Under the pieces are notes generated by a model, which saw only the letters and a list, made by a program, of their open reading frames with translations, was not told the origin of the DNA and did not search any database. A stretch of DNA of 64,000 bases from a virus, in IMG/VR virus record IMGVR_UViG_3300009011_000002, positions 124,001 through 188,000 of that record; one strand, 5' to 3'. Positions 1,837 to 55,832 of the stretch are shown in pieces. The translations under genes and the position numbers were made by a program. Position 1 is the stretch's first letter, and every line of letters starts with the position of its first letter.

Positions 1837-2433
1837 ATGGCCCTTCCAAATGAAAAACTCTTTTTGGATCGGTTTGTCCTTTACAACAATGAACGCTACA
1901 AGGATGAACCCCGAATCGTAAACGCGCTCAACGCCTTGACCGTTGGCAACGTTGTGTTCTCCAACTACCGTAAGGTTCCGCTCGAAGATGGTTCCAGTGA
2001 GATGACTCACTTGGTGGACCTCGACCAGCCAGGGATCTTGATTGCACACGACCAGCAATATCTCCCGGCAGACTATGTCGAGAACGGCGCTTCCCAGGTA
2101 GCGGAAGTGGATCCTTTGGCGTTGGAAGAACTCCAAACCCGTAAGTTCGATGGTATCTACCGTCTCCAAGAGAGCGTAGAGCCACCGGCTCACATCGGGG
2201 CGGTTCTGGTGCTGAAAGGGGAGAAGACAGCTGAGAACATTCGGCTGGTAGTGAAGGAGAACTGCTTCTTCATGCTGGACGACGAGGAGATTGTCATTGA
2301 CGACGAACTCACTCTCGTGACCATTGATTCCCACACCGTTGTGGGTGTCTTGCAGATCGTCGAAGGTATTTACGCTCGTGGTGAGCCGATCTACGACGGT
2401 ACCTACAACTACGACGGTACGATCACGTACTAA
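1837..2433 (+). CDS. Fibre-block protein with a paralogue at 20549, 198 aa
   Basis: First gene of the plus-strand late block, 26 bases before the collagen-like fibre gene. The first 45 residues ('LFLDRFVLYNNERYKDEP', then 'LTVGNVV') align with the start of the 202-residue protein encoded at 20549-19941 ('LFHERFVKFNLDRYKDDP', 'LTLGMV'), and both end in a beta-rich region with a Tyr-rich tail, so they are paralogues. The rest is beta-rich and acidic. Its context suggests a virion component, perhaps attaching the fibre to the baseplate, but that is inference. The ribosome site (GGAACC, about ten bases upstream) is weak. Confidence 0.82.
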   Translation: MALPNEKLFLDRFVLYNNERYKDEPRIVNALNALTVGNVVFSNYRKVPLEDGSSEMTHLVDLDQPGILIAHDQQYLPADYVENGASQVAEVDPLALEELQTRKFDGIYRLQESVEPPAHIGAVLVLKGEKTAENIRLVVKENCFFMLDDEEIVIDDELTLVTIDSHTVVGVLQIVEGIYARGEPIYDGTYNYDGTITY

Positions 2434-2459: not shown

Positions 2460-5400
2460 ATGGCGAATATTGAAGAAGAAAGTGTCTTCCCCGAAGAAAT
2501 CCCGCTTATCGAGCGGGGTGAGAAAGTCGAAGGTGGTGTGGCTGGTGCTTCCAACCGCGCACTGATCCTGTTTGCCATGCGTACTCGCTGGCTGAAAGAC
2601 CAGCTGGAAGCCCTGGCTATCAACGGTCTGGACATGAAGGGTACTCTTCCCGATGAAGAAGCTCTGCTGGCCATCGATACCGAAGACCTTGCCCGCGGTA
2701 CCGCCTACGTCGTTGATTTCGCAATGCGCGTCTGGAACGGCACTGAATGGGCGAGCTCGGGTTCGCTGCGCGGTGCGCGTGGTCTGAACATCCTGGGTCG
2801 TTGGCCAACCAATAGCGATCTGCCTGTTGCGGAAGATCAAGAACTGGGTGACGCCTTCCTGTGGCGCAACGACGTTTGGGTGCTGACCCCCGATGGTTGG
2901 GAAGCTCTCAACATTCGTGGTGCTGACGGCAAAAGCGCTTTCGACGTCTGGTTGGAAATCCCAGGCAACGAAGGTAAGACCGAGGAAGAATTCGTCGAAG
3001 CCATCAAAGGCCCCGTCGGTGACTCCTTCCTGGATTCCTGGTTGGCACTTCCCGGTAACGAGGGTAAAGACCTCGATGACCTGATGGAAGCGCTGAAAGG
3101 TCCTCAGGGTGACGTGCGTCCTGCCTTCGCAGTGAAAGGCACCAAGCCAACCGCTGAAGATCTGCCACAACCTGGTGTTCAAGGCGACGCCTGGTACGTA
3201 GGCCTCGACCTGTACTTCTGGGTCGAAGAAGACGCCAGCTACTCGATGATCCCAGGTATCGGCGGTAAATCCGCCTTCGAGATCTGGAAAGAGAACGGCC
3301 ATCCAGACGGCACCATGGAAGAGTTCCTCGAATCCATGATGGGTGGCGAAGGCATCCTGATGAAGGGGCGTCTGGCTGACGAGGAAGCACTCGCAGCTAT
3401 CGATACCACCAACCTGAAACTGGGTACTTCCTACTTCGTCGATTTCGCGATGCGTGTATGGAACGGTACCGAGTGGAGTAGCTCGGGTTCCCTGCGTGGT
3501 GAGCGTGGTATCAACCTGCTGGGTAGCTGGCCAACTGGTAGCGACCTGCCGGTCCGTGACGACTACATCGTAGGTGACGCGTTCCTGTGGCGCAACGATA
3601 TCTGGATCCTCCTGCCTGAACCTGAGGGTTGGGAGTCCATGAACATCCGTGGTGCGGATGGTCGTTCGGCGTTGGAAGTATGGCAAGCCATCGAAGGCAA
3701 CGAGGGTAAAGACGAAGAAGACTTCTTCGAAGCCCTGCGTGGCCCTGCTGGTCTGTCGGCTTTCGCTGAGTGGCAGACCTTCCCGGGCAACAAGGACAAG
3801 CCGTACTCCGAGTTCCAAGAGACCATTCGTGGTCCTCAAGGTAACCCACGTGCTCCGTTCGAAGTAGCTGGTAGCGTTCCCAACGTTGGCGCTCTGCCAA
3901 CCCCTGGCGATGCAGCCAAAGCCTACTACATCGACCGTGACCTGCATGTGTGGGTGGAAGACACCCAGAGCTACTTCGTCATTCCTGGTCTGGCCGGTAA
4001 ATCGGCGTTTGAAGTATACACTTCGATCCCAGGTAACGAAGACAAGACCCTGGGCGAATTCTGGGAGTCGCTGCGTGGCCCTCAAGGTGAGAACGTCAAG
4101 GGCGATCCTGGTAAAGACGGTGCCAACCTGAACGTGCTGGGTCAAGTTGCAAATCGTGATGCACTGGACGATCTGCAAGACGTCAAAGACCAAGACGCCT
4201 ACAGCCTGGCTGACACCGGCCACCTGTGGATCTACTCCACTGAGAAAGGCGGGTGGGTTGACGCCGGTCCTTACCGTGGCGTGGATGGTAAATCCGCCTT
4301 CGAGATCTGGAAAGAACAGCCAGGTAACGAAGACGGTACTGTTGCTCAGTTCTTGGCTGCACTGAAAGGTAAAGACGGTACCAGCGTCAAGATCCTGGAT
4401 GTGTTCGACGAGCTGTCGGAACTTCCTACCGGTGCTGCTGAACAAGACACCTACGCTGTCCGTGAAACCCGGTCGATCTACACTTGGTTGAACGGTGCCT
4501 GGGCTAGCCTCGGTACGTTCGGTAAAGATGGTGCGGACGGTAAAGACGGTAAGTCGCTGGATATCATCAAAATCCTCACCGAGGACGACGATGCCATCCC
4601 AGCAGCTGACAATACCAGTCTCGGTAAGGCTTACGTCGACTTGGACAAAAACGTCTTCGTCAACATCGCCAACAGCTGGGTAAACGCCGGTAAGTTCACC
4701 GGTGAGCAAGGTGAGATCGGTCTGCCAGGTCATAACCTGCGCCCGAAAGGCACCATCGAATCGGTAAACCAACTGCCTAACCCTGCACTGGAAGGTGTGG
4801 AAGAAGGCGACGCCTACGTCATTGCCAGCACCAAGCTGATGTACGTGCTGGTGGACGGTCTGTGGAATGGTCCGTTCGACTTCATCGGCCCAGAAGGTAA
4901 GGACGGCCCTCAGGGTGCTCCTGGTGCGTTGATGCCTATTAAAGGTACCTTCGTATCCATGACTGCATTGCAGGCCGCACACCCTACTGGTGAGCTCGGT
5001 GACGCGTACATGCTCATCGACCCATCCGCTCAACCAGAACCACTGCGTAACCTGGCTATCTGGTCTCCAGAACAAGCCACGTGGGTCGACACCGGTCCTG
5101 CCGGTATCCGTGGTGAGAAAGGTGAACCTGGTAAGGATTCTACTGTACCGGGTGTCAAAGGTGACAAGGGCAGCCAGTGGCTGATTCTCGATGAAGTTGA
5201 TGAGCCGTCCAACACCTTCAACGGTCGCGTAGGCGACTGGTGTGTTACCCGTGGCATGAAGGTGTACTACAAGTCGCCTACCGGTTGGCAGTACTGGGGT
5301 ATGTTGATGGCGGGTGATGTCAACTCGCCGCTGCGTAGCCTGGGTAAGGTCGTGCGTTGGGGTACCGAGTGGGTCGCTCTCCCGGTTGATGAAGTTGAAG

Positions 5401-6050
5401 CACCAGAAGCTGGCATGTTCTACGCCCGTATTCTGAAAGAGGGTTCTCTGGATGAAACCGAGTGGGGCGTGGTCGAATTCCCGAAAGGGATCGAAGATCT
5501 ACTCACCGATGATGGCAAACAATACGTTCGCGTATTCGCTGCTGACGGGGAAACCCCAATCTGGGCAGAGCTCGATATCAGCGACCAGCTGGAAGGCTTC
5601 ATCAAAGACCCAGAAGGTGCTGCGGCTAACACCCTGTGGCTGCGTGCCGCCGGTGAGAAAACCTGGATCGAGTACAAGAAGGCGCCTACCACTACTGGCC
5701 TGCAGTTCCTCCAAATCGGCGGTGAGTGGAAGTCCTTCGACCGTTACGACTTGCTGATCAAAACGGCTAACGCCACTCTCACTATCAACCCTAGCGTCGA
5801 ACAATTCGTGAAACTGGATAACTCCGGTGCCACGGCCAAGGTCGTTAGCATCAACAACCACGGCGCCACTCGTGGCATGTGCGTGGTGTTGGAAGTGGTG
5901 GGTGTGGTTGGTGCGATCAGCTACGGCGGTACCAACATCAGGTGGGATCAGAACACCATCCCTAGCTTGACTGGTACCAAGAACCTCATCCTGTTCACCT
6001 GGGATGGCGATGTCTGGATCGGTTCCAAAGGTCCTGGTCTGCTCAACTAA
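2460..6050 (+). CDS. Large collagen-like tail fibre with SAFEVW repeats, 1196 aa
   Basis: Probable long tail fibre. After a ~55-residue N-terminal region comes a 242-residue unit repeated in tandem (units start near residues 59 and 301). Each unit has a strand-rich module ('VDFAMRVWNGTEW'), a module 'GDAFLWRNDIW' and copies of the motif G-x-S-A-F-E-x-W...G-N-E...E-F-x-E-A-x-x-G. I count seven such motifs, near residues 157, 187, 268, 400, 430, 512 and 609. Collagen-like G-x-y runs follow (for example 'GKDGADGKDGKS', 'GEKGEPGKDS'). The last ~100 residues lack repeats and look like a compact beta-rich tip. SAFEVW-type repeats are a known feature of phage fibres, where they are thought to make trimeric stems. 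Receptor binding would be by the C-terminal part. Confidence 0.92.
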   Translation: MANIEEESVFPEEIPLIERGEKVEGGVAGASNRALILFAMRTRWLKDQLEALAINGLDMKGTLPDEEALLAIDTEDLARGTAYVVDFAMRVWNGTEWASSGSLRGARGLNILGRWPTNSDLPVAEDQELGDAFLWRNDVWVLTPDGWEALNIRGADGKSAFDVWLEIPGNEGKTEEEFVEAIKGPVGDSFLDSWLALPGNEGKDLDDLMEALKGPQGDVRPAFAVKGTKPTAEDLPQPGVQGDAWYVGLDLYFWVEEDASYSMIPGIGGKSAFEIWKENGHPDGTMEEFLESMMGGEGILMKGRLADEEALAAIDTTNLKLGTSYFVDFAMRVWNGTEWSSSGSLRGERGINLLGSWPTGSDLPVRDDYIVGDAFLWRNDIWILLPEPEGWESMNIRGADGRSALEVWQAIEGNEGKDEEDFFEALRGPAGLSAFAEWQTFPGNKDKPYSEFQETIRGPQGNPRAPFEVAGSVPNVGALPTPGDAAKAYYIDRDLHVWVEDTQSYFVIPGLAGKSAFEVYTSIPGNEDKTLGEFWESLRGPQGENVKGDPGKDGANLNVLGQVANRDALDDLQDVKDQDAYSLADTGHLWIYSTEKGGWVDAGPYRGVDGKSAFEIWKEQPGNEDGTVAQFLAALKGKDGTSVKILDVFDELSELPTGAAEQDTYAVRETRSIYTWLNGAWASLGTFGKDGADGKDGKSLDIIKILTEDDDAIPAADNTSLGKAYVDLDKNVFVNIANSWVNAGKFTGEQGEIGLPGHNLRPKGTIESVNQLPNPALEGVEEGDAYVIASTKLMYVLVDGLWNGPFDFIGPEGKDGPQGAPGALMPIKGTFVSMTALQAAHPTGELGDAYMLIDPSAQPEPLRNLAIWSPEQATWVDTGPAGIRGEKGEPGKDSTVPGVKGDKGSQWLILDEVDEPSNTFNGRVGDWCVTRGMKVYYKSPTGWQYWGMLMAGDVNSPLRSLGKVVRWGTEWVALPVDEVEAPEAGMFYARILKEGSLDETEWGVVEFPKGIEDLLTDDGKQYVRVFAADGETPIWAELDISDQLEGFIKDPEGAAANTLWLRAAGEKTWIEYKKAPTTTGLQFLQIGGEWKSFDRYDLLIKTANATLTINPSVEQFVKLDNSGATAKVVSINNHGATRGMCVVLEVVGVVGAISYGGTNIRWDQNTIPSLTGTKNLILFTWDGDVWIGSKGPGLLN

Positions 6051-6822: not shown

Positions 6823-8847
6823 ATGATTGAAGCATTATTACCACGGAAAAGTGATATTTACCCTTGGCCGGGTGATCAGTACTTAGGCGAAGTTACCAGC
6901 GCTAATTTCATTGATGGTGTCGCTTTGGCATCATTGTTGGGATTAACCAGTGGCCTGGTCTCTAACAGTGACGCAGGCTGGTTGAAGTTTAAAAAGCAAG
7001 AAGGCGAAACCCTCCTTGTTGCTAAGAAAACTTTACGCTACCGTTTGTCGTGGAACCAGCTAGAAGCAGCGCTGATCATGTACGGCGAACGTTTGATTAG
7101 CATTCAGGGTAATACCTACAAGGTACGGTTGTTGCGAGGGGCTGAGAAAGACCCTAGTGATTGGCGTACGTCGATGTCACAGGACAACCCTCCAGAAGCG
7201 GCACCGTCTGAGTGGAACCGTTTGATCCACCGGGTGGCTGTGGGTAACCCCGGATTGGCACCGAACTTTGCCACATTTCCTTTGACGGACTTGAGCATTG
7301 CAGTGTCTGCTACAGGGCGTATGACCCTGTGCCAAGAAGCCCTCTCCGAGAACACTGGTAACGCAGTTGCTCGGGGTAACACCAGCCTGTCAATATTCAA
7401 CTACGTGCTCAAATCTGATGGTGCTGCATCGTCTGCGCAGGATCATTACGGTTGGCGGCCCGTGTTGGAACTCGTAGGTCCTACCAAGTACTACCCAGGC
7501 TCTGGACCTGGTAGCAAGACGTTAGCGTTTGGTAATGAGCAGCTCGGTTTCTTCGGTGAAGTGGCTGCTTCAGAGATGGTAACCAACACCCAGTTGAAAA
7601 CACACTTGGGTCATGCGGCAGGTACTGCTCGTGCTGATCAAGGGTGGTTAAAGTTCTTCTATAAAGGCAAGGTTATCTTCATCGGGAAAAACACCTATTG
7701 CTCTGGGTTGACGTGGAACAACCTGTATGCAGCTGGTGGTATTTACGGAACCAACGACAATGGCAAGTACCCAGCAGCTACTCCAGTAAATCAGTACAAA
7801 CCACTGACCTGGAATAGCGAGAACAAAGTATTCAGGTTAATTCCTCGCGCCACGACCATGTCGGCTGACCCGTTTGAAAACGGTGACCCGGTTACTTCGG
7901 ATAACGAGTACTCTGACCTGCTGGGTCGGTTGATGGTAAACGTCGCGTTCCCGGGGAGTGGTCAGTGGGGGCGGTACACCGCAGCACAGCTCAACATGCA
8001 CATTGTTCATATGGGTCCTGGTACTCGCGGCTCTGCTCCTACCTATGCGGCAATCCGTGGTTATACTGGTGGTACTAACTACACCAGTTTGCTGAGCCTT
8101 ACTAAGGCAGATGCCAGCGGGTACAACCAACACTTCCGGATGACCTTAGTGGTTGAAGGTGACCCTAACGTTGAACCTATCTCAAGTAACTGGAGCGACT
8201 CCTTTACTTTTGATCCAGGTAGCAGCGGAGTTTCTCTTAGCGGGAAAACCAACGTTACTTCTGGTGTCATTCGAGAAGAGCCACCGTCCATCGGCGACGT
8301 AACAGTGTCCTTGCCGCTTGGTAACTTGGACAACATTACCTGGGAGTTTGATCAACCGCTTGATTTGTCGGCGCGTGACTGGACCCTTGAATGGTCTTCT
8401 CGTAACGAGGCTAGCGTACTGGCAGGTTACGTAGCGGATACCGCCTTGTTGTCTACGGCTGGTTTAGAAGCTGTTTGCGCACGCTATGGTAACTCTGGGT
8501 ATGGCGATCGTTTCCAGTTAGGTGGCAACATGGCTACGTCGGCAGTGGTCTGGAACAGTCGGTTTACTAAATCAGCTGTTAACGGGGTACTGAAAAACTA
8601 CGCGTTGGTTTCGGTTGCTGGGCAGATCTCTCTGTACGTCGATGGCGTGAAAGAGATGTTGGCCAACGGAACAAGTTCGAACTACACTGCAGCCTCGTTT
8701 GCTTCTAACGCTTCCCTGACCGCAGTTAAGTATATCAGATTGGGTGGTTACGGTGCAAACGCCATTACCATGCCAGCGAAACGTGGTAAAGCACGGTTCA
8801 GTCTGTTTGCTCGTTATAGCGACAACTACACACCAACCCCTTTCTAG
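6823..8847 (+). CDS. Adhesin-like virion protein with two family repeats and a LamG-like end, 674 aa
   Basis: Longest member of an array of related proteins. Two copies of the family domain are present: a divergent one (about 12-220) and a canonical one (about 228-430), recognised by 'GPGSKTLAFGNEQLGFFGE', then 'W-L-K-F-F-Y-K-G-K-V-I-F', 'LTWNNLYAAGGIYG', 'PVNQ' and a 'FRLIPRA' strand. Residues 450-674 look like a concanavalin/LamG-type beta sandwich ('ITWEFDQPLDLSARDWTLEW', 'NYALVSVAGQISLYVDGVKE'), a fold often used for glycan binding. The N terminus (MIEALL) is shared with genes 9336 and 10268. Probably a receptor-binding or virion-decoration protein. Confidence 0.85.
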   Translation: MIEALLPRKSDIYPWPGDQYLGEVTSANFIDGVALASLLGLTSGLVSNSDAGWLKFKKQEGETLLVAKKTLRYRLSWNQLEAALIMYGERLISIQGNTYKVRLLRGAEKDPSDWRTSMSQDNPPEAAPSEWNRLIHRVAVGNPGLAPNFATFPLTDLSIAVSATGRMTLCQEALSENTGNAVARGNTSLSIFNYVLKSDGAASSAQDHYGWRPVLELVGPTKYYPGSGPGSKTLAFGNEQLGFFGEVAASEMVTNTQLKTHLGHAAGTARADQGWLKFFYKGKVIFIGKNTYCSGLTWNNLYAAGGIYGTNDNGKYPAATPVNQYKPLTWNSENKVFRLIPRATTMSADPFENGDPVTSDNEYSDLLGRLMVNVAFPGSGQWGRYTAAQLNMHIVHMGPGTRGSAPTYAAIRGYTGGTNYTSLLSLTKADASGYNQHFRMTLVVEGDPNVEPISSNWSDSFTFDPGSSGVSLSGKTNVTSGVIREEPPSIGDVTVSLPLGNLDNITWEFDQPLDLSARDWTLEWSSRNEASVLAGYVADTALLSTAGLEAVCARYGNSGYGDRFQLGGNMATSAVVWNSRFTKSAVNGVLKNYALVSVAGQISLYVDGVKEMLANGTSSNYTAASFASNASLTAVKYIRLGGYGANAITMPAKRGKARFSLFARYSDNYTPTPF

Positions 8848-19940: not shown

Positions 19941-20549
19941 TTAAGGCAGCGGAGCTTCTTCTTCGACATCCAGCTGACCGTAGTAGGTCGGCGGGATGAC
20001 AATGATCTCAGCAGCACCTTGCACCCATTCCAGGGTACCCAGGAAGGTATCACCGATCAGTTCGATGGTGGTACCACCTTCCGGAACGTTCACTTCCGGA
20101 ATGTCGTATTTCAGCGCAGCTTTCAGGGCGGTTTCAACAGCAGCCGCAAAGCCCGCTTCTTCCACTTCGGCGGAGATCACCACAGCAGCCTTAACGGTTT
20201 CGCCGTCGAGGTAGCTGTACACGCCAACAGCGGTTTGTTCCTTCAGGGTTTCGAGGTCCGCGATAGGTACCAGCGGATCTTCGTTGCCCAGGGTGTAGAG
20301 CTTGACGTTGGTCGCAGCGTCTGCTGGGGTCCAGTCTTGCTCGATACCTTTGAAATTCCGTGCTACCGAAGTAACAGTGGAACGACGGCTACCCTCCACC
20401 GGCTCCGAAATATCGGTGATGTCAGTGATGGAAACCATACCCAAGGTCAGACCTTGGAACAGCGGCAACATCTTCGGATCGTCTTTGTAACGATCCAAGT
20501 TGAATTTCACGAAACGTTCGTGAAACAACTCCAAGTGGGCCTTAGCCAT
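19941..20549 (-). CDS. Paralogue of the late fibre-block protein at 1837, 202 aa
   Basis: Begins 'MAKAHLELFHERFVKFNLDR' and aligns with the start of the 198-residue product at 1837-2433 ('ALPNEKLFLDRFVLYNNERY'), continuing through 'L-T-[LV]-G-[MN]-V'. The remainder is beta-strand and Ala/Glu rich and ends in an acidic Tyr-containing tail like its paralogue. It is the last gene of the unit that starts with the chaperonin, so a virion or fibre-related client of the chaperonin is a natural guess, but only a guess. AGGAGAAGCC precedes the ATG. Confidence 0.82.
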   Translation of the reverse strand: MAKAHLELFHERFVKFNLDRYKDDPKMLPLFQGLTLGMVSITDITDISEPVEGSRRSTVTSVARNFKGIEQDWTPADAATNVKLYTLGNEDPLVPIADLETLKEQTAVGVYSYLDGETVKAAVVISAEVEEAGFAAAVETALKAALKYDIPEVNVPEGGTTIELIGDTFLGTLEWVQGAAEIIVIPPTYYGQLDVEEEAPLP

Positions 20550-22584: not shown

Positions 22585-22592
22585 GTAATATA
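22585..22592 (-). promoter_or_regulatory. Early-type phage promoter for the chaperonin operon
   Basis: TATATTAC on the minus strand (22592-22585), preceded by AGTCAAACC. It lies 37 bases before the chaperonin ATG. It lacks the TTAAGTTGCAGT upstream box found at 1695, 29897, 34586, 40888 and 46516, so it belongs to a second subclass with 42657 and 55825. Confidence 0.75.
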
Positions 22593-32253: not shown

Positions 32254-33363
32254 TTATTGTTTAATTGTTTTGCCAAGTTTCTTGGCTTTCTTCCGATACT
32301 TCCGCATCGCTTCCTTACAGGATTCGTCTGCGTTGATATAGAACTTGATACCCTCGACGATATCGTCCCAGGTAGGATAGAGCTTGCAGTTATCCATGAT
32401 GAACTTGACGAGCTTGCGATTGGTCAGGTCTTTACCCAACTTCTCGAGCTCTTGGTTCAACCGGCGGAGCCAGCTGTTGCTGAACCCGGAGTTGCTGTGG
32501 ATCTGACGGTGGCGTTTCGCAACGGCGCGCTTGCGGGCTTCCTCTTCTTCAGGCGTAGGGCCGTAGACGAAGTTGAAGTCTTCCAGGTTCACGGTCATGA
32601 TGTCGATCTCGCCGTCACCGAGAACTTCCATGGCCTTTTTGACCTGAGAAGGTGTCAGCCCCTTGCTCTTGAGGAACTCGCGGATCTGCCCCGTCTTAAC
32701 GATCTTGGCGGTGGCCTTACCGAAAAGATTTCCGTCGAACATTTCCTGACGTGCCTTGGAGGCAATCTGGATACCTGGCTCGCATAGAAGGTCGGTATCA
32801 CCAAGACTACCCGAGGGACGCTGGTGGCCGAGACGAACACCCAGCTTCAGATCGTGCAGCTCGGACAGCGCAGCATAAGAAACGTTGGTCAGGGTTACGG
32901 TACGCCCAGAAGGCAGCTTGAAGATACGAGGACCGATGTCACCCTCATTAATCTTTATGACCTCCCCCAACGTCGGAACTTTCAACCCGAGTTTAAGCCC
33001 ACTGAGAGGCAATTCCGTGTTATAAGCCTGTTGGTTTTTGGAGATTTCTTCCTCAGCTTTAGGTGGAGGAAGGACTACACCCAGAAACTCCAACCCGGTC
33101 ACATCACGTTTGCTTGTACGTCCTGCTTCGAGCAGCTTACTCCAGCCGGAGTTGAAAATACTGTTCTCGGCGTGGCTCTGGACGATCGCGTGGCTGAGGG
33201 CTTGCGTGAAGAACGAATCGTCACCGGTGAAGATTTTCTTAAGCTCTTCAACCGTGCTGTTCTCTACCAGTTTACGAAGTTCTTCCTTACGGTCGCCGGC
33301 AAATTGATCGAGCTTACCGGCTTCAAACATTGCCAGCAGTGCTTCTTTAAGATTGTTAGCCAT
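32254..33363 (-). CDS. Hypothetical protein, 369 aa
   Basis: Large unrecognised protein. N-terminal 70 residues helical and acidic; centre beta-rich with 'LPSGRTVTLTNVSYAALSEL'; then 'FLKSKGLTPSQVKKAMEVLG' (a helix-turn-helix-like pair, about 230-250); C-terminal third very basic ('MRKYRKKAKKLGKTIKQ'). Basic tail and helix pair hint at nucleic-acid binding. It overlaps the upstream module gene by eight bases. Not similar to any protein I can name. Confidence 0.78.
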   Translation of the reverse strand: MANNLKEALLAMFEAGKLDQFAGDRKEELRKLVENSTVEELKKIFTGDDSFFTQALSHAIVQSHAENSIFNSGWSKLLEAGRTSKRDVTGLEFLGVVLPPPKAEEEISKNQQAYNTELPLSGLKLGLKVPTLGEVIKINEGDIGPRIFKLPSGRTVTLTNVSYAALSELHDLKLGVRLGHQRPSGSLGDTDLLCEPGIQIASKARQEMFDGNLFGKATAKIVKTGQIREFLKSKGLTPSQVKKAMEVLGDGEIDIMTVNLEDFNFVYGPTPEEEEARKRAVAKRHRQIHSNSGFSNSWLRRLNQELEKLGKDLTNRKLVKFIMDNCKLYPTWDDIVEGIKFYINADESCKEAMRKYRKKAKKLGKTIKQ

Positions 33364-33634
33364 TCTTCTGTTCCTTCAATTCTTCAATTCGGAGTTTGCA
33401 AGCAGCGAGGCTTGCCTTAGGGGAATAACGACGACGCAAACGGAACCACGTCACCCAAACCGGGTTAGGTTTACCGTTAGCCAGAGCGGGAGGAGGCTCT
33501 GGCATTTCTTTCAAACTGTCGTTGAAAGCATGGTGTGCTTCTTTGTAAGACACTCCCTTTTGTTGCATGTACGCTTGGACCCAGGTGTGATTAATCTCAC
33601 CTTTCTTGGAAATCAAAGGTGGTAGTGTGTTCAT
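33356..33634 (-). CDS. Double tryptophan-module protein, 92 aa
   Basis: Two copies of the module in tandem: copy 1 'P-P-L-I-S' then 'I-N-H-T-W-V-Q-A' (W18; the second Trp is Ala21) with helix 'VSYKEAHHAF'; copy 2 'P-P-A-L-A-N-G-K-P-N-P-V-W-V-T-W-F' (W60, W63) with helix 'YSPKASLAACK'. Linked by 'KEMPEP'. Its closest relative is 34262, which has the same two-copy arrangement and the same linker ('KAMPEP'). The two genes flank the HD-domain gene, so this is a duplication around it. Confidence 0.8.
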   Translation of the reverse strand: MNTLPPLISKKGEINHTWVQAYMQQKGVSYKEAHHAFNDSLKEMPEPPPALANGKPNPVWVTWFRLRRRYSPKASLAACKLRIEELKEQKNG

Positions 33635-33650: not shown

Positions 33651-34265
33651 TTATACCGTCAGCGCATCGATTTCTTTACGCTGTTCTTCCAGTTCCGCAC
33701 CAAAAGCTTTGATGTACAAATCCGGATAACGAGCATAACCACCAGTGCCGAACTTTTCCTTCAGATGCTTGAGAGCACCTTCACGACGCTCAGCAAGGGT
33801 CATCTCAGGGTTGTGCTTTTCTCGGTACATCACAGCACGATAGCGCATCTGAGTAACCCGACCTGGCAACCCACGATCCGCCGAGTTGATCAGTTCAGCA
33901 AATCGATTACTGAACTCCCCCTTGAATGAAGCACGATGTTGCTGACAGCCCAGGTATACATTCCTGAGTTCTTCACCTTGAAGGTTGTTAACAATCAGCG
34001 GGTGGTCAGTGGTAACCAGCCACTCGTAGCTGAGGGTGTGGTGATTATTACGGCTCCACGCGAACATGTCGTGGAAGTAAGCGGCGAACAACATCCACTT
34101 AGGGTCGTAACCCAACCCTAGGCGTTGATCGATCACCATAGCGGTTTGGAACACTTCTTCGAAATGTTCTTTGCGATGAGCTTTGTCATTCAGTTCCCAA
34201 AGCTCAGAGAACGACTCGATAATTTGTTTACGCAGTTCGCCAATCTGTTCTGGGGTGGTCATCAT
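33651..34265 (-). CDS. HD-domain phosphohydrolase-like protein, 204 aa
   Basis: HD-superfamily metal site: H34 in 'HRKEHF', 'A-A-Y-F-H-D-M' (H65-D66) and a later Asp in 'NSADRG' (near 129); additional His at 75/76 and 'QQHR' fit an extended site. Members hydrolyse phosphate bonds of nucleotides or signalling molecules; phage HD proteins can act on dNTPs, ppGpp or cyclic nucleotides, but the substrate cannot be read from sequence. ATGATG start overlaps the stop of 34262. Flanked by two paralogous double-module proteins, suggesting a functional unit. Confidence 0.82.
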   Translation of the reverse strand: MMTTPEQIGELRKQIIESFSELWELNDKAHRKEHFEEVFQTAMVIDQRLGLGYDPKWMLFAAYFHDMFAWSRNNHHTLSYEWLVTTDHPLIVNNLQGEELRNVYLGCQQHRASFKGEFSNRFAELINSADRGLPGRVTQMRYRAVMYREKHNPEMTLAERREGALKHLKEKFGTGGYARYPDLYIKAFGAELEEQRKEIDALTV

Positions 34266-34549
34266 GCGTTTCCTTCTTGTAAGAGTTTGAGTTTAGCCAA
34301 CCCGCATTTCTTTGCGATGTTGGTTGTTACGTTGTTGTGGATCCGATACCAGTGGACCCACCGCACACTGAGGAACTGACCGGTCTTCGAAAGCTTAGGC
34401 TCCGGCATAGCCTTGATCCGTTCGATATGTTGGAACCGAGCAGTTACAGGGGTACACCCATGTTTCTGTTGATACCACAGCTGCCACGCTGGATTGAACC
34501 CACCATTCCCATCAATGAGACTGGGTTCTTTTAATAGGACCTTCGGCAT
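34262..34549 (-). CDS. Double tryptophan-module protein, 95 aa
   Basis: First gene of this operon, 37 bases after a perfect TATATTAC. Copy 1: 'E-P-S-L-I-D' then 'F-N-P-A-W-Q-L-W-Y' (W22, W25), helix 'CTPVTARFQHIE'. Copy 2: 'P-K-L-S-K-T-G-Q' then 'L-S-V-R-W-V-H-W-Y' (W64, W67), helix 'VTTNIAKKCGLA'. Paralogue of 33356. No other domain is present, so binding of a partner through the modules must be its whole function. Confidence 0.82.
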   Translation of the reverse strand: MPKVLLKEPSLIDGNGGFNPAWQLWYQQKHGCTPVTARFQHIERIKAMPEPKLSKTGQFLSVRWVHWYRIHNNVTTNIAKKCGLAKLKLLQEGNA

Positions 34550-34585: not shown

Positions 34586-34618
34586 GTAATATAGATGGGA
34601 GATCGGCTAAAACTTAAT
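34586..34618 (-). promoter_or_regulatory. Early-type phage promoter
   Basis: TATATTAC at 34593-34586 on the minus strand with upstream box ATTAAGTTTTAGCCGATC ending at the same distance as in the other two-part sites. Drives the operon beginning with the ATG at 34549. Confidence 0.75.
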
Positions 34619-34655
34619 ACCGATGTATCGGGTTAATAGGTCGTATCAAAAAGAA

Positions 34656-34698
34656 ATATAACCCCCTACTGCCTTTGTGGGGCAGTAGGGGGTTATAT
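34656..34698 (-). terminator. Very strong terminator hairpin
   Basis: ATATAACCCCCTACTGCC (34656-34673) pairs over 18 bases with 34681-34698. Followed on the minus strand by TTCTTTTTGATACG. It ends the operon at 34710, just upstream of the next promoter. Confidence 0.9.
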
Positions 34699-34709
34699 TC
34701 GGTTACTCG

Positions 34710-35117
34710 TTAGCCGAACAATACGGACAGGTCAGGTTTAACCAAGTTGAGTAGCGTTCTCAATTCTTGATTGGCCGGATTCATGACCATTTCGTAGTGA
34801 GGGTACTGAGGTGTCCACTGCCGAGTGTCTTTCAACGGTGGTGGTTTCAGCCCACAGAATTCATCGATGATGTGGTCTTCTTGCTCCAACATCATGTTGA
34901 ACCGGACGGAACTGAGTTGTTGGTGACGCATGAGTTCCCCAACGTTCCATTGGGTATTATGGGCCATTACATCCATCCCAAGGAAATCCATCCAGGCCCT
35001 TTCGTTGACACGACCGTCTACCTTACGCAGGGGTTTAGGTCGGACTACTGTTGGGCGAAGACCTTTACCACGACCAAAGGCAGCAATCAGATCGAGAGTA
35101 GAATTATTAGAACGCAT
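34710..35117 (-). CDS. Protein with degenerate tryptophan module, 135 aa
   Basis: Module remnant: 'K-P-L-R-K-V-D-G-R-V-N-E-R-A-W-M-D-F' (W42, with Phe45 in place of the second Trp), followed by helices 'NTQWNVGELMRHQ'. The N terminus is basic ('AFGRGKGLRPTVVRPKP'); the C-terminal half has Pro-rich and helical parts ('QWTPQYPHYEMVMN'). Overlaps the upstream gene by eleven bases. Last gene before the strong terminator. Function unknown. Confidence 0.75.
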   Translation of the reverse strand: MRSNNSTLDLIAAFGRGKGLRPTVVRPKPLRKVDGRVNERAWMDFLGMDVMAHNTQWNVGELMRHQQLSSVRFNMMLEQEDHIIDEFCGLKPPPLKDTRQWTPQYPHYEMVMNPANQELRTLLNLVKPDLSVLFG

Positions 35118-35604
35118 AACGGTTCACCTCGGCTGGTTCGGTAGGGAGCCACAACAGAACGGCACCGGCACCATGGTCATCGGGCAATGCTTCACGAACG
35201 GTAGCCCGCTGGTAATTGTCGAACAACCCTACCTCGCCGTTGAACTTCTGCTTGAACGGCAGTTCGAGTCCAACAGGTTTGGTATAACGGATAAAGCCCA
35301 GTACCCACTGCTCGGACTTACCGCCCCTTTCATAGTGACACACCACGATGAGCCCGTCACCGTACTCGTTGACCTCCAACTCGAAAGTCCGGGAGTTGAA
35401 GACCGTGTGGTTATGGAACATGATGAAAGCCAAGAAGGCTTCTTTCGTTGCCGGGACCAACACCTGCGGGAAACCGCTGTCGTTGAACATGTCACGCTGA
35501 ACGAACAGACAGTACTCGCCCGGGAAGGACTGGTCTTTACCACGAACCATATCCCAGTATTGTTCGGAAGTTTGGTTCTTGATGATGTCGATATAAGGAT
35601 GCAT
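35107..35604 (-). CDS. Hypothetical protein, 165 aa
   Basis: Unrecognised beta-rich protein: 'GEYCLFVQRDMF', 'PQVLVPATKEAFLAFIMFHN', 'RTFELEVNEYGDGLIVVCHY', 'GAVLLWLPTEP'. Without signal peptide or membrane span. ATG at 35604 follows AAAGGTACAGAAC. It overlaps the module gene downstream by eleven bases, so both are likely co-translated. No motif suggests an enzyme. Confidence 0.75.
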   Translation of the reverse strand: MHPYIDIIKNQTSEQYWDMVRGKDQSFPGEYCLFVQRDMFNDSGFPQVLVPATKEAFLAFIMFHNHTVFNSRTFELEVNEYGDGLIVVCHYERGGKSEQWVLGFIRYTKPVGLELPFKQKFNGEVGLFDNYQRATVREALPDDHGAGAVLLWLPTEPAEVNRYAF

Positions 35605-35619
35605 GTTCTGTACCTTTAG

Positions 35620-36210
35620 TTATTCAGATGGCCCGCTGTTGTCACTGCCGCTACTACCGCCGTAGTCGTTGTCAGACCCACGAGGAGAACACCGGGGCGC
35701 GCTCAGAGGCTCTCCGGTGCCTAAATCAGGGCCGTATTGGTGATGGTGGTGGATATGGGTGACGTTGCCGCCATGACGTTTAGGAGGAGCTGGCGGAGGC
35801 CCTTTTGGAGGGATCTTCGGTAGGGGGTTGCGACGGCCAGGTTCTAATGGTGGAGCTGAAGCTCGTGGATACCCGCCAGCTTTACGAGTCTTCTCACCCA
35901 ACGGTGGTTGACTGATGCTGTCAATCGTTAAAACGATATCATCAACACTATAGGCTTCGATGAAATCTTTTTCACTCTTACCTGCATTACCTTCGAGTGC
36001 TTGCCATACTTCAAATGCCGAACGACCCAGTCTTTTACTACGCTCGAGCTTACGGATTTCTTTCTCGGCATCACGGAACTTCTTTTCGAACTCGTTAGCC
36101 CGACGAGTCTCACGACACCACATAACGAACGAACTGATTACTGCGATCCAGAACAACAGGAACAGAATAACAGCCGGCAACATAGCGGCGGGGTTTAAGT
36201 GGAACGTCAT
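35620..36210 (-). CDS. Membrane protein with a fibre-type SAFEVW motif, 196 aa
   Basis: Start at 36210 (MTFHLNPAAM), with AGGAG six bases upstream. One transmembrane helix (10-31), then a charged coiled coil (36-60), then 'G-R-S-A-F-E-V-W-Q-A-L-E-G-N-A-G-K' with '..D-F-I-E-A' (62-86), which is the same motif found seven times in the late fibre at 2460. The C-terminal half is Pro/Gly-rich with a His cluster ('HIHHHHQYG') and a Ser/Gly/Asp tail, presumably disordered. A fibre-stem motif attached to a membrane anchor in an early operon is unusual; it might oligomerise the protein. Confidence 0.82.
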   Translation of the reverse strand: MTFHLNPAAMLPAVILFLLFWIAVISSFVMWCRETRRANEFEKKFRDAEKEIRKLERSKRLGRSAFEVWQALEGNAGKSEKDFIEAYSVDDIVLTIDSISQPPLGEKTRKAGGYPRASAPPLEPGRRNPLPKIPPKGPPPAPPKRHGGNVTHIHHHHQYGPDLGTGEPLSAPRCSPRGSDNDYGGSSGSDNSGPSE

Positions 36211-36212
36211 CA

Positions 36213-36500
36213 CTAGCTCCTGTATTGAAGGTACAAGAGAGCCCACGCAACAATGTGGCCTCCCAATGCAATCGAAACCCCCAAGACCTGCCACCGATTC
36301 TGTAATGGCCAGTGGCGGCGCATCCGTTGCCAGCGTGTGGCATTCGGTTGTACCGGGGGACGGTTATCAAGCATCATCAGGATATTGAACGAGTCAGTTT
36401 TGAAGTGCTCGTCCACCATCCGTTTAGCTTCCTCGAGGTTGCCAGGAACCGGATGGCTTTCGATGTTAGGTTCGCGGAACTTGAGAATCTTGGCTGTCAT
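36213..36500 (-). CDS. C-terminally anchored membrane protein, 95 aa
   Basis: Hydrophilic N-terminal 65 residues containing a helix ('LEEAKRMVDEHFKTDSF') and a basic aromatic stretch ('RWQRMRRHWPLQNRW'), then a single hydrophobic segment (about 70-90) and a 'QYRS' end. The basic region next to the span predicts a cytoplasmic N terminus. Two bases separate it from the next membrane protein at 36210, suggesting the two work together. Overlaps the upstream gene by 35 bases. Confidence 0.75.
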   Translation of the reverse strand: MTAKILKFREPNIESHPVPGNLEEAKRMVDEHFKTDSFNILMMLDNRPPVQPNATRWQRMRRHWPLQNRWQVLGVSIALGGHIVAWALLYLQYRS

Positions 36501-37312: not shown

Positions 37313-37798
37313 TCACATACCGAGTCGCTTAATGGCTTCTTGCAACAACTGGGTGTCAAAGGTCTTGCCAGCGATCTTGCCATCGCGTGTCAAGGAAGCC
37401 GCCAGGATCTCGAGGTGCTGGGAGATGTCCTTGTTGGTCATGTCGGATGGCGCTGGGATAAATGTCTTAGCCAGTGGGTTGTCCAGCATGGCCCGGAGTT
37501 TATCCAGTTCCTTGGTGGCCATCTTCATGCCTTCACTGAGAGCACCAATTGCTTGGATGCCTTTGAGCATGCCTTCGAAATTAGCGGCGAAGTTGCTTCT
37601 AAGGTCCGCAGGTTTGATGGAGTCGGCGTGGACTTTTTCGAGCTTACGCATCCCTGCCCCAAGACGCAGGCACATGTTCAGCTGTTCGATTGCAGCAGTG
37701 CGGTATTCCCGACTGGTACCGTCGGTCACAGGCAGTGCCAACACCATACGTTTCAGTGCACCCACTTGCCGTGCGTAATCATCGAGATCTTTGATCAT
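37313..37798 (-). CDS. Helical protein, 161 aa
   Basis: Almost entirely alpha-helical: helices around 3-20, 29-62, 68-108 and 122-160, with Ala/Leu/Met-rich faces suggesting a helical bundle or coiled-coil dimer. No family recognised. It overlaps the end of the preceding module protein by 20 bases in a different frame; AGGAGGCGTAG lies before the ATG at 37798. Unknown function. Confidence 0.76.
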   Translation of the reverse strand: MIKDLDDYARQVGALKRMVLALPVTDGTSREYRTAAIEQLNMCLRLGAGMRKLEKVHADSIKPADLRSNFAANFEGMLKGIQAIGALSEGMKMATKELDKLRAMLDNPLAKTFIPAPSDMTNKDISQHLEILAASLTRDGKIAGKTFDTQLLQEAIKRLGM

Positions 37799-38426
37799 CG
37801 GGTTCTACGCCTCCTTTTTCAATGAAGTCCTTGCCTATATGGATGGCAGCGACCAGTGAGATGTCATAGTGGTCACGCGCCCACTTAACCCACTCGTAGT
37901 TAAGGCCGCATTGCATGGAACCACTGAGTTTAGGTTCGCCGGGACGGCGGGCCAGATAAGTCCCTTTGGCATTCCAACGTTTGAGGAATGTGTGGATAGG
38001 AGAACCAGGGTTTTCCCTGATGCTGATTTCCAACGGAGTTTTATCGACAAGGCGACGACCGCTCTTGAAAATCCCCATCAAATCCAGACTGCCGTCTTCA
38101 AGGAAGAACTGACTGATGTCTTTGAAGTTGCCCCTGCCACTGACCGAATCAAAACTGGCTTCCGCATCTTCGATGCAGCTGAAGTACTGGCCGTTAGGAG
38201 GCAATTGGATCCAGCACTCTTGAGGAATGGCTTTGATCACATCCTCCGCCGACAGGTACTTAGGGATCCCACCAAACACCGTGCTGAAGGTACCAGGGCG
38301 AAGTCCGCCGTTCAGCAACTTATCCAACGTTGGAAAACCAACACTGAGTTTTTCCAGATGTTCCTTGGGGACCGGCTCAAATTCCGGCATTTTCAATTTG
38401 AGCCGATCAAACAAATCTTTATCCAT
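37779..38426 (-). CDS. Protein with C-terminal tryptophan module, 215 aa
   Basis: A ~160-residue N-terminal domain of unknown type ('LSVGFPTLDKLLNGGLRPGTFSTVFGG' region is Gly-rich) is followed by 'G-E-P-K-L-S-G-S' and 'L-N-Y-E-W-V-K-W-A' (W179, W182) with helix 'ISLVAAIHIGKDF'. This shows the module attached as a C-terminal tag to a larger domain. The segment resembles the start of RecA-like proteins ('FPTLDKLLNGGL') but lacks a Walker A Gly-Lys-Ser/Thr, so no ATPase claim is made. Confidence 0.78.
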   Translation of the reverse strand: MDKDLFDRLKLKMPEFEPVPKEHLEKLSVGFPTLDKLLNGGLRPGTFSTVFGGIPKYLSAEDVIKAIPQECWIQLPPNGQYFSCIEDAEASFDSVSGRGNFKDISQFFLEDGSLDLMGIFKSGRRLVDKTPLEISIRENPGSPIHTFLKRWNAKGTYLARRPGEPKLSGSMQCGLNYEWVKWARDHYDISLVAAIHIGKDFIEKGGVEPDDQRSR

Positions 38427-40887: not shown

Positions 40888-40920
40888 GTAATATAGAGAC
40901 AAGACTTACTACAACTTAAG
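40888..40920 (-). promoter_or_regulatory. Early-type phage promoter with overlapping inverted repeat
   Basis: TATATTAC (40895-40888) plus the upstream box CTTAAGTTGTAGTAAGTC. Immediately downstream, ACCAGCC (40867-40873) pairs with GGCTGGT (40883-40889), so the hairpin overlaps the core and would form the 5' end of the new mRNA or terminate transcription arriving from 40916. Confidence 0.75.
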
Positions 40921-42656: not shown

Positions 42657-42664
42657 GTAATATA
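42657..42664 (-). promoter_or_regulatory. Early-type phage promoter
   Basis: Perfect TATATTAC on the minus strand, preceded by TATTAAACC. Belongs to the subclass without the TTAAGTTGCAGT box. 39 bases ahead of the ATG at 42618. Confidence 0.72.
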
Positions 42665-55824: not shown

Positions 55825-55832
55825 GTAATATA
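55825..55832 (-). promoter_or_regulatory. Early-type phage promoter
   Basis: Perfect TATATTAC on the minus strand (55832-55825), preceded by AATAAACC, only seven bases from the stop codon of the SbcC-like gene. The mRNA leader to the ATG at 55721 is about 95 bases and includes a short AUG-rich part (55745-55752). Belongs to the subclass without the TTAAGTTGCAGT box. Confidence 0.75.

Follow-up and report, generated by a model that had tools for sequence, protein, structure and literature searches.

Apparent reuse of a 26-residue fibre-stalk module in an early membrane protein of a giant phage

How does a small early gene come to encode the motif that recurs seven times in the late tail fibre of the same phage, and what could a piece of fibre stalk be doing at a membrane? 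Both questions are raised by the gene at 35620-36210 of the DNA analysed here, a 64,000-nucleotide stretch (the window; positions 124,001 to 188,000 of IMG/VR record IMGVR_UViG_3300009011_000002). An earlier note on the window had described the gene product as an early, single-span protein with a coiled coil and a His/Pro-rich tail, and had read its fibre-like motif either as a trimerisation element or as a transferred piece of a fibre gene, possibly serving to mask a receptor.

The early membrane protein and its operon

The gene and its parts are as follows.

35620-36210, minus strand: early single-span membrane protein of 196 residues with one fibre-stalk module (open reading frame, AGGAG before the ATG, in the operon behind TATATTAC)
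36118-36186, minus strand: transmembrane helix, residues 9-31 (hydropathy peak; helix 7-58 in the model)
36028-36114, minus strand: charged coiled coil, residues 33-61, with +12/-7 over residues 32-61 (heptad core)
35950-36027, minus strand: fibre-stalk module, residues 62-87 (profile of the fibre copies; nucleotide identity with fibre copy F401; helix-loop-helix in the model)
35623-35910, minus strand: Pro/His-rich tail ending in Gly/Ser, residues 101-196, predicted mostly disordered (composition; low pLDDT)

All the parts that the earlier note had named are borne out. The start codon is the ATG at 36210 with AGGAG in front of it, and the only span is that at residues 9-31, where the 19-residue hydropathy peaks at 2.59. 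Coiled-coil heptads extend over residues 33-58 (shuffle p 0.0005) with the core A38, F41, F45, A48, I52 and L55, and their register carries on into the module, reaching F66 and W69; the tail has the His/Pro-rich composition described. The module itself, residues 62-87, reads GRSAFEVWQALEGNAGKSEKDFIEAY. An AlphaFold2 model of the single chain, computed with module relatives in the alignment, gives one helix at residues 7-58 and two more at 65-71 and 80-88, and the module is accordingly predicted to fold as a helix-loop-helix. Local confidence is high for the two module helices and mostly low for the tail; when module relatives are left out of the alignment, the model has one helix, from 7 to 74.

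No charge precedes the span and +12/-7 follows it within 30 residues, so that an N-out/C-in topology is predicted. The charge rule, taken by itself, would thus have the module face the cytoplasm from the inner membrane, although some phage membrane proteins break this rule. Neither a signal peptide nor a lipobox is seen in the protein.

Outside the module the protein has few likenesses. A tblastn search for relatives of the whole protein in 50,697 phage records returned only module matches, and a peptide scan of IMG/VR yielded none. Six phage records gave only module matches and one weak Pro-rich match to the membrane protein, and a Foldseek search against viral models gave nothing at E ≤ 0.001. 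PDB matches to the whole protein were rejected as resemblances to His-tags, and a Pfam MAP17 match (E 0.012) fell below the family cut-off and was ignored. A 1528-residue query that combined most of the proteins encoded nearby in the operon had no match in phages, and the gene at 35107-35604 has no relative in IMG/VR. The protein is best read as a lineage-specific early inner-membrane protein, with no relative of its remainder found in these searches.

The early setting of the gene is defined by three neighbouring features.

40888-40895, minus strand: core of a phiKZ-type early promoter, TATATTAC, at the head of the operon (six in the window against 0.49 expected)
36213-36500, minus strand: tail-anchored protein of 95 residues just upstream, a possible partner (second clear span; junction sequence)
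34654-34700, minus strand: terminator-like hairpin closing the operon (20-pair stem, then a T-rich tail)

The motif TATATTAC is the one listed for the phiKZ promoter (PMC7058600). Its six copies in the window, where 0.49 would be expected by chance, all lie on the minus strand (1695-1702, 22585-22592, 34586-34593, 40888-40895, 42657-42664 and 55825-55832) and mark where further early promoters are likely to lie. Behind the copy at 40888-40895, as in a phiKZ-type early operon, co-directional genes run from 40840 to 34710 and include 35620-36210; the assignment to an early operon with a promoter at 40888 is thus supported. Two bases separate the stop codon of 36213-36500 from the downstream ATG of 35620-36210 and, among the 19 genes scanned, only 36213-36500 encodes another clear span. 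It is by this position and this span that it is considered a possible partner.

The genome also encodes an RNA polymerase subunit of phiKZ type (E 4.1e-45), a GroEL and a DNA ligase that is NAD-dependent, and its fibre has the same build as in the Pseudomonas phage MIZ-Pa99 (210 kb), a combination that we infer to fit an EL-like phage. A chimallin (ChmA) gene was not detected with 201phi2-1 gp105 or its pPa_SNUABM_DT01 homologue as query, a search that a distant homologue could escape, and for this reason none of the readings offered below assumes a phage nucleus or an early vesicle.

Other small elements recur in the window and in a related phage. Proteins encoded at 19941-20549 (minus strand, behind the TATATTAC copy at 22585-22592 and after GroEL) and at 1837-2433 (plus strand, just upstream of the fibre) are paralogues, each matching phrog_18233 as well as a virion-structural family; here again a minus-strand gene has a counterpart at the fibre locus. 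Several short early proteins share a small Trp-rich module: it is common to 33356-33634 and 34262-34549 (minus strand) and is seen more weakly in 37779-38426 and in the relative's gene L007:1891-2361; its spread suggests that small modules are shuffled among early genes. In the related phage, a small protein (L007:7181-7903, minus strand) encoded beside the HD-domain gene matches the C-terminal domain of the window's virion-type protein 6823-8847.

Kinship and spread of the module

The fibre and its module copies are located as follows.

2460-6050, plus strand: tail fibre that carries the module seven times (phrog_3904 tail fiber, E 1.6e-173)
3660-3737, plus strand: fibre copy F401, closest relative of the membrane-protein module (19/26 residues, 60/78 nucleotides)
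2928-3005, 3018-3095, 3264-3338, 3750-3827, 3996-4073 and 4287-4364, plus strand: the other six fibre copies (profile)

The fibre copies start at residues 157, 187, 269, 401, 431, 513 and 610. A profile HMM of these seven, run over the whole 226,773-base virus record, finds, besides these copies themselves, only the membrane protein (E 1.3e-10, 40.3 bits) and no further match up to E 10, confirming that the motif in 35620-36210 is that of the fibre. All the near-invariant positions of the module (G1, S3, A4, W8, G13, N14, K17 and F22) are kept in the membrane protein, which also has in common with F401 two rare states, R2 and E12.

The kinship with F401 extends to the DNA. The two are identical at 60 of 78 bases, compared with 52 of 78 for the best pair within the fibre, and the identity is sharply bounded by these 78 bases, with nothing similar outside. 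Of 79 further distinct copies gathered from many phages, F401 ranks first on residues and on bases alike, with 60/75 bases identical against 52/75 for the runner-up. When both peptides were reverse-translated with the codon usage of the phage, the mean was 53.6 identical bases and 60 were reached in 1.1% of trials (p about 0.011). Because F401 is nearest by both measures, the module most likely came from the phage's own fibre lineage, the sequences pointing to copy F401 or its direct ancestor as the source. Within one genome, a building block of the virion can here be followed, in the DNA itself, from the late fibre to an early gene for a membrane protein.

Nucleotide alignment with the fibre copies was the means that the earlier note had proposed for judging whether the transfer was recent. 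It was not: synonymous divergence between the module and F401 is about 0.55 (pS), which rules out a recent transfer. Non-synonymous divergence is 0.15, and the resulting dN/dS of about 0.17, an estimate from only 26 codons, suggests that the pair has remained under selection.

A module of this kind is widespread. Its 28-residue consensus is matched by 240 records of the phage collection; among the 60 of these 240 matches that were listed, most of those with an annotation are tail fibre, tail spike or collagen-like, and of eight looked at that are named only as hypothetical proteins most are fibre-like. We also fetched 21 module loci from IMG/VR and 49 from bacterial and archaeal genomes. Collagen Gly-X-Y runs lie within about 60 residues of the module in 64 of the 70 open reading frames, and the other six resemble phage fibres, fragments, or a module plus coiled coil (L048, L050). 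Among these 70, then, the module is not common in unrelated membrane proteins, the outcome that the earlier note had said would count against its reading. Gly-X-Y repeats are lacking in the 35620-36210 protein, as they are in the RB43 protein described below, L048 and L050. Actinobacterial membrane-anchored collagen-like proteins (L074, L102) have the module after an N-terminal span. In RB43 and in the Citrobacter phage Xman a short protein joins DUF1737 to the module, present once or several times, and to a Phage_tail_NK knob; one LUZ7 protein has a similar layout, and the three carry between one and five module copies.

L055:2330-3031, opposite to most neighbours: RB43 short module protein (DUF1737 and tail-needle-knob domain)
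L056:2488-3630, opposite to most neighbours: Xman short module protein (DUF1737 and tail-needle-knob domain)
L051:2794-3483, opposite to most neighbours: LUZ7 ORF35, similar layout (module copies)

RB43 and LUZ7 are early non-fibre users of the module. Its presence in fibres, collagen-like proteins and short proteins indicates a stalk element of a general kind, put to new use from time to time. Among the 70 fetched reading frames and the phage matches listed (60 of 240), no other protein was found with one copy placed after a span and a coiled coil and with no collagen. A literature search found no paper that names the module, and by sequence it has no match in the PDB.

Possible roles of the module at the membrane

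What the module does in the membrane protein is most likely to hold a trimer together, rather than to imitate the fibre and so block other phages. In fibres it sits between triple-stranded segments, and elsewhere it adjoins a collagen triple helix, a coiled coil or a tail-needle-knob, which we count in favour of an oligomerising role. The low dN/dS and the retained near-invariant positions count for a role that has been kept, and the heptad register running into F66 and W69 counts for a continuous stalk of coil and module. We give about an even chance to an early inner-membrane oligomer in which the fibre-derived module fixes the coiled coil and displays a cytoplasmic Pro/His-rich tail, probably together with the 36213-36500 protein. 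The transmembrane helix would pass into the coiled coil as an in-register stalk at the inner membrane; one helix-loop-helix module taken from the phage's own fibre stalk would close the coil and most likely lock it into a parallel, probably trimeric, assembly; and the Pro/His-rich stretch of about 100 residues, for the most part disordered, would be shown on the cytoplasmic face early in infection. The adjacent tail-anchored protein would probably act together with it, and the target in the cell may lie in host takeover, an early phage compartment or a host defence. The more specific proposal, that the module trimerises on the cytoplasmic side within a two-protein inner-membrane assembly with 36213-36500 that acts before progeny are made, is put forward tentatively. 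The earlier note's two alternatives, trimerisation and transfer, are thus compatible: the DNA kinship with F401 adds a fibre origin, and an oligomerising role was probably kept. If the oligomerising role is right, the protein illustrates one route by which phages make new early membrane proteins out of what they already encode, and the module is a short, defined and testable element.

The same membrane-anchored oligomer could face the other way, N-in/C-out, forming a periplasmic stalk like that of an i-spanin or TonB that remodels the envelope or excludes later phages. TonB and the spanins have a Pro-rich region after a single span, which the present protein recalls, and L074 and L102 likewise have the module after an N-terminal span. 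We regard this orientation as unlikely, if still worth keeping in mind, as the charges all follow the span, the operon is early rather than late, and no family match was obtained. It is also rather improbable that the module is a mere passenger, a fibre fragment put into an existing early membrane gene by illegitimate recombination and having no role of its own. The sharp edges of the DNA similarity and the absence of collagen neighbours would suit such an event, but the near-invariant positions have been kept, with the low dN/dS, in spite of the synonymous divergence, and the module stands in heptad register with the upstream coil.

The earlier note's own suggestion, a receptor-masking or fibre-mimicking superinfection-exclusion protein, fares worse and is very doubtful. 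Exclusion proteins are typically expressed early and located in membranes, as the present protein would be, and T4 Spackle is an early periplasmic example (PMC7677548). The shared piece, however, is a generic stalk of phages and bacteria and not a receptor-binding tip, no route to the outer surface is seen, and the predicted cytoplasmic placement argues against receptor masking if the charge rule holds. Chance likeness of two short peptides, to which a length of just 26 residues might lend itself, is ruled out by the genome-wide profile match, together with an excess of shared codons (p about 0.01) and the two rare states held in common.

Comparison with known systems

The membrane protein resembles T4-type exclusion proteins such as Spackle in being early and associated with the cell envelope (PMC7677548). 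Spackle, however, is periplasmic and binds the tail lysozyme (PMC7677548), and no sequence relation between the two was found. Nor is the layout of an i-spanin matched: the charge pattern is reversed, there is no family match, and the early operon has no recognised lysis genes.

Closer parallels are found among other carriers of the module. The DUF1737-module-Phage_tail_NK proteins of RB43 and Xman and LUZ7 ORF35 are likewise short, module-bearing and encoded in non-structural gene regions, and the RB43 protein has, like ours, a single copy without collagen repeats. These proteins differ in having no membrane span, in the trimeric tail-needle-knob or collagen domain that borders their module, and in the orientation of their genes opposite to their neighbours. 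The actinobacterial proteins L074 and L102 share the order of N-terminal span followed by module, but they have long collagen repeats and are products of cellular genes, presumably exported, whereas the membrane protein has no collagen and its module is predicted on the cytoplasmic side.

The same 25-26 residue module forms part of the fibre stalks of jumbo Pseudomonas phages, among them Viktualia, RVTF4, Phabio and 201phi2-1, where it matches phrog_26303 (consensus about GKSAYEVWLxxPGNAGKTExxFIASLKG). Those fibres are long, late virion proteins, in contrast to the small early protein with one copy and no Gly-X-Y repeats. The module is a widespread component of fibre and collagen stalks, and among the carriers examined only the 35620-36210 protein puts it to early, membrane-anchored use without collagen.
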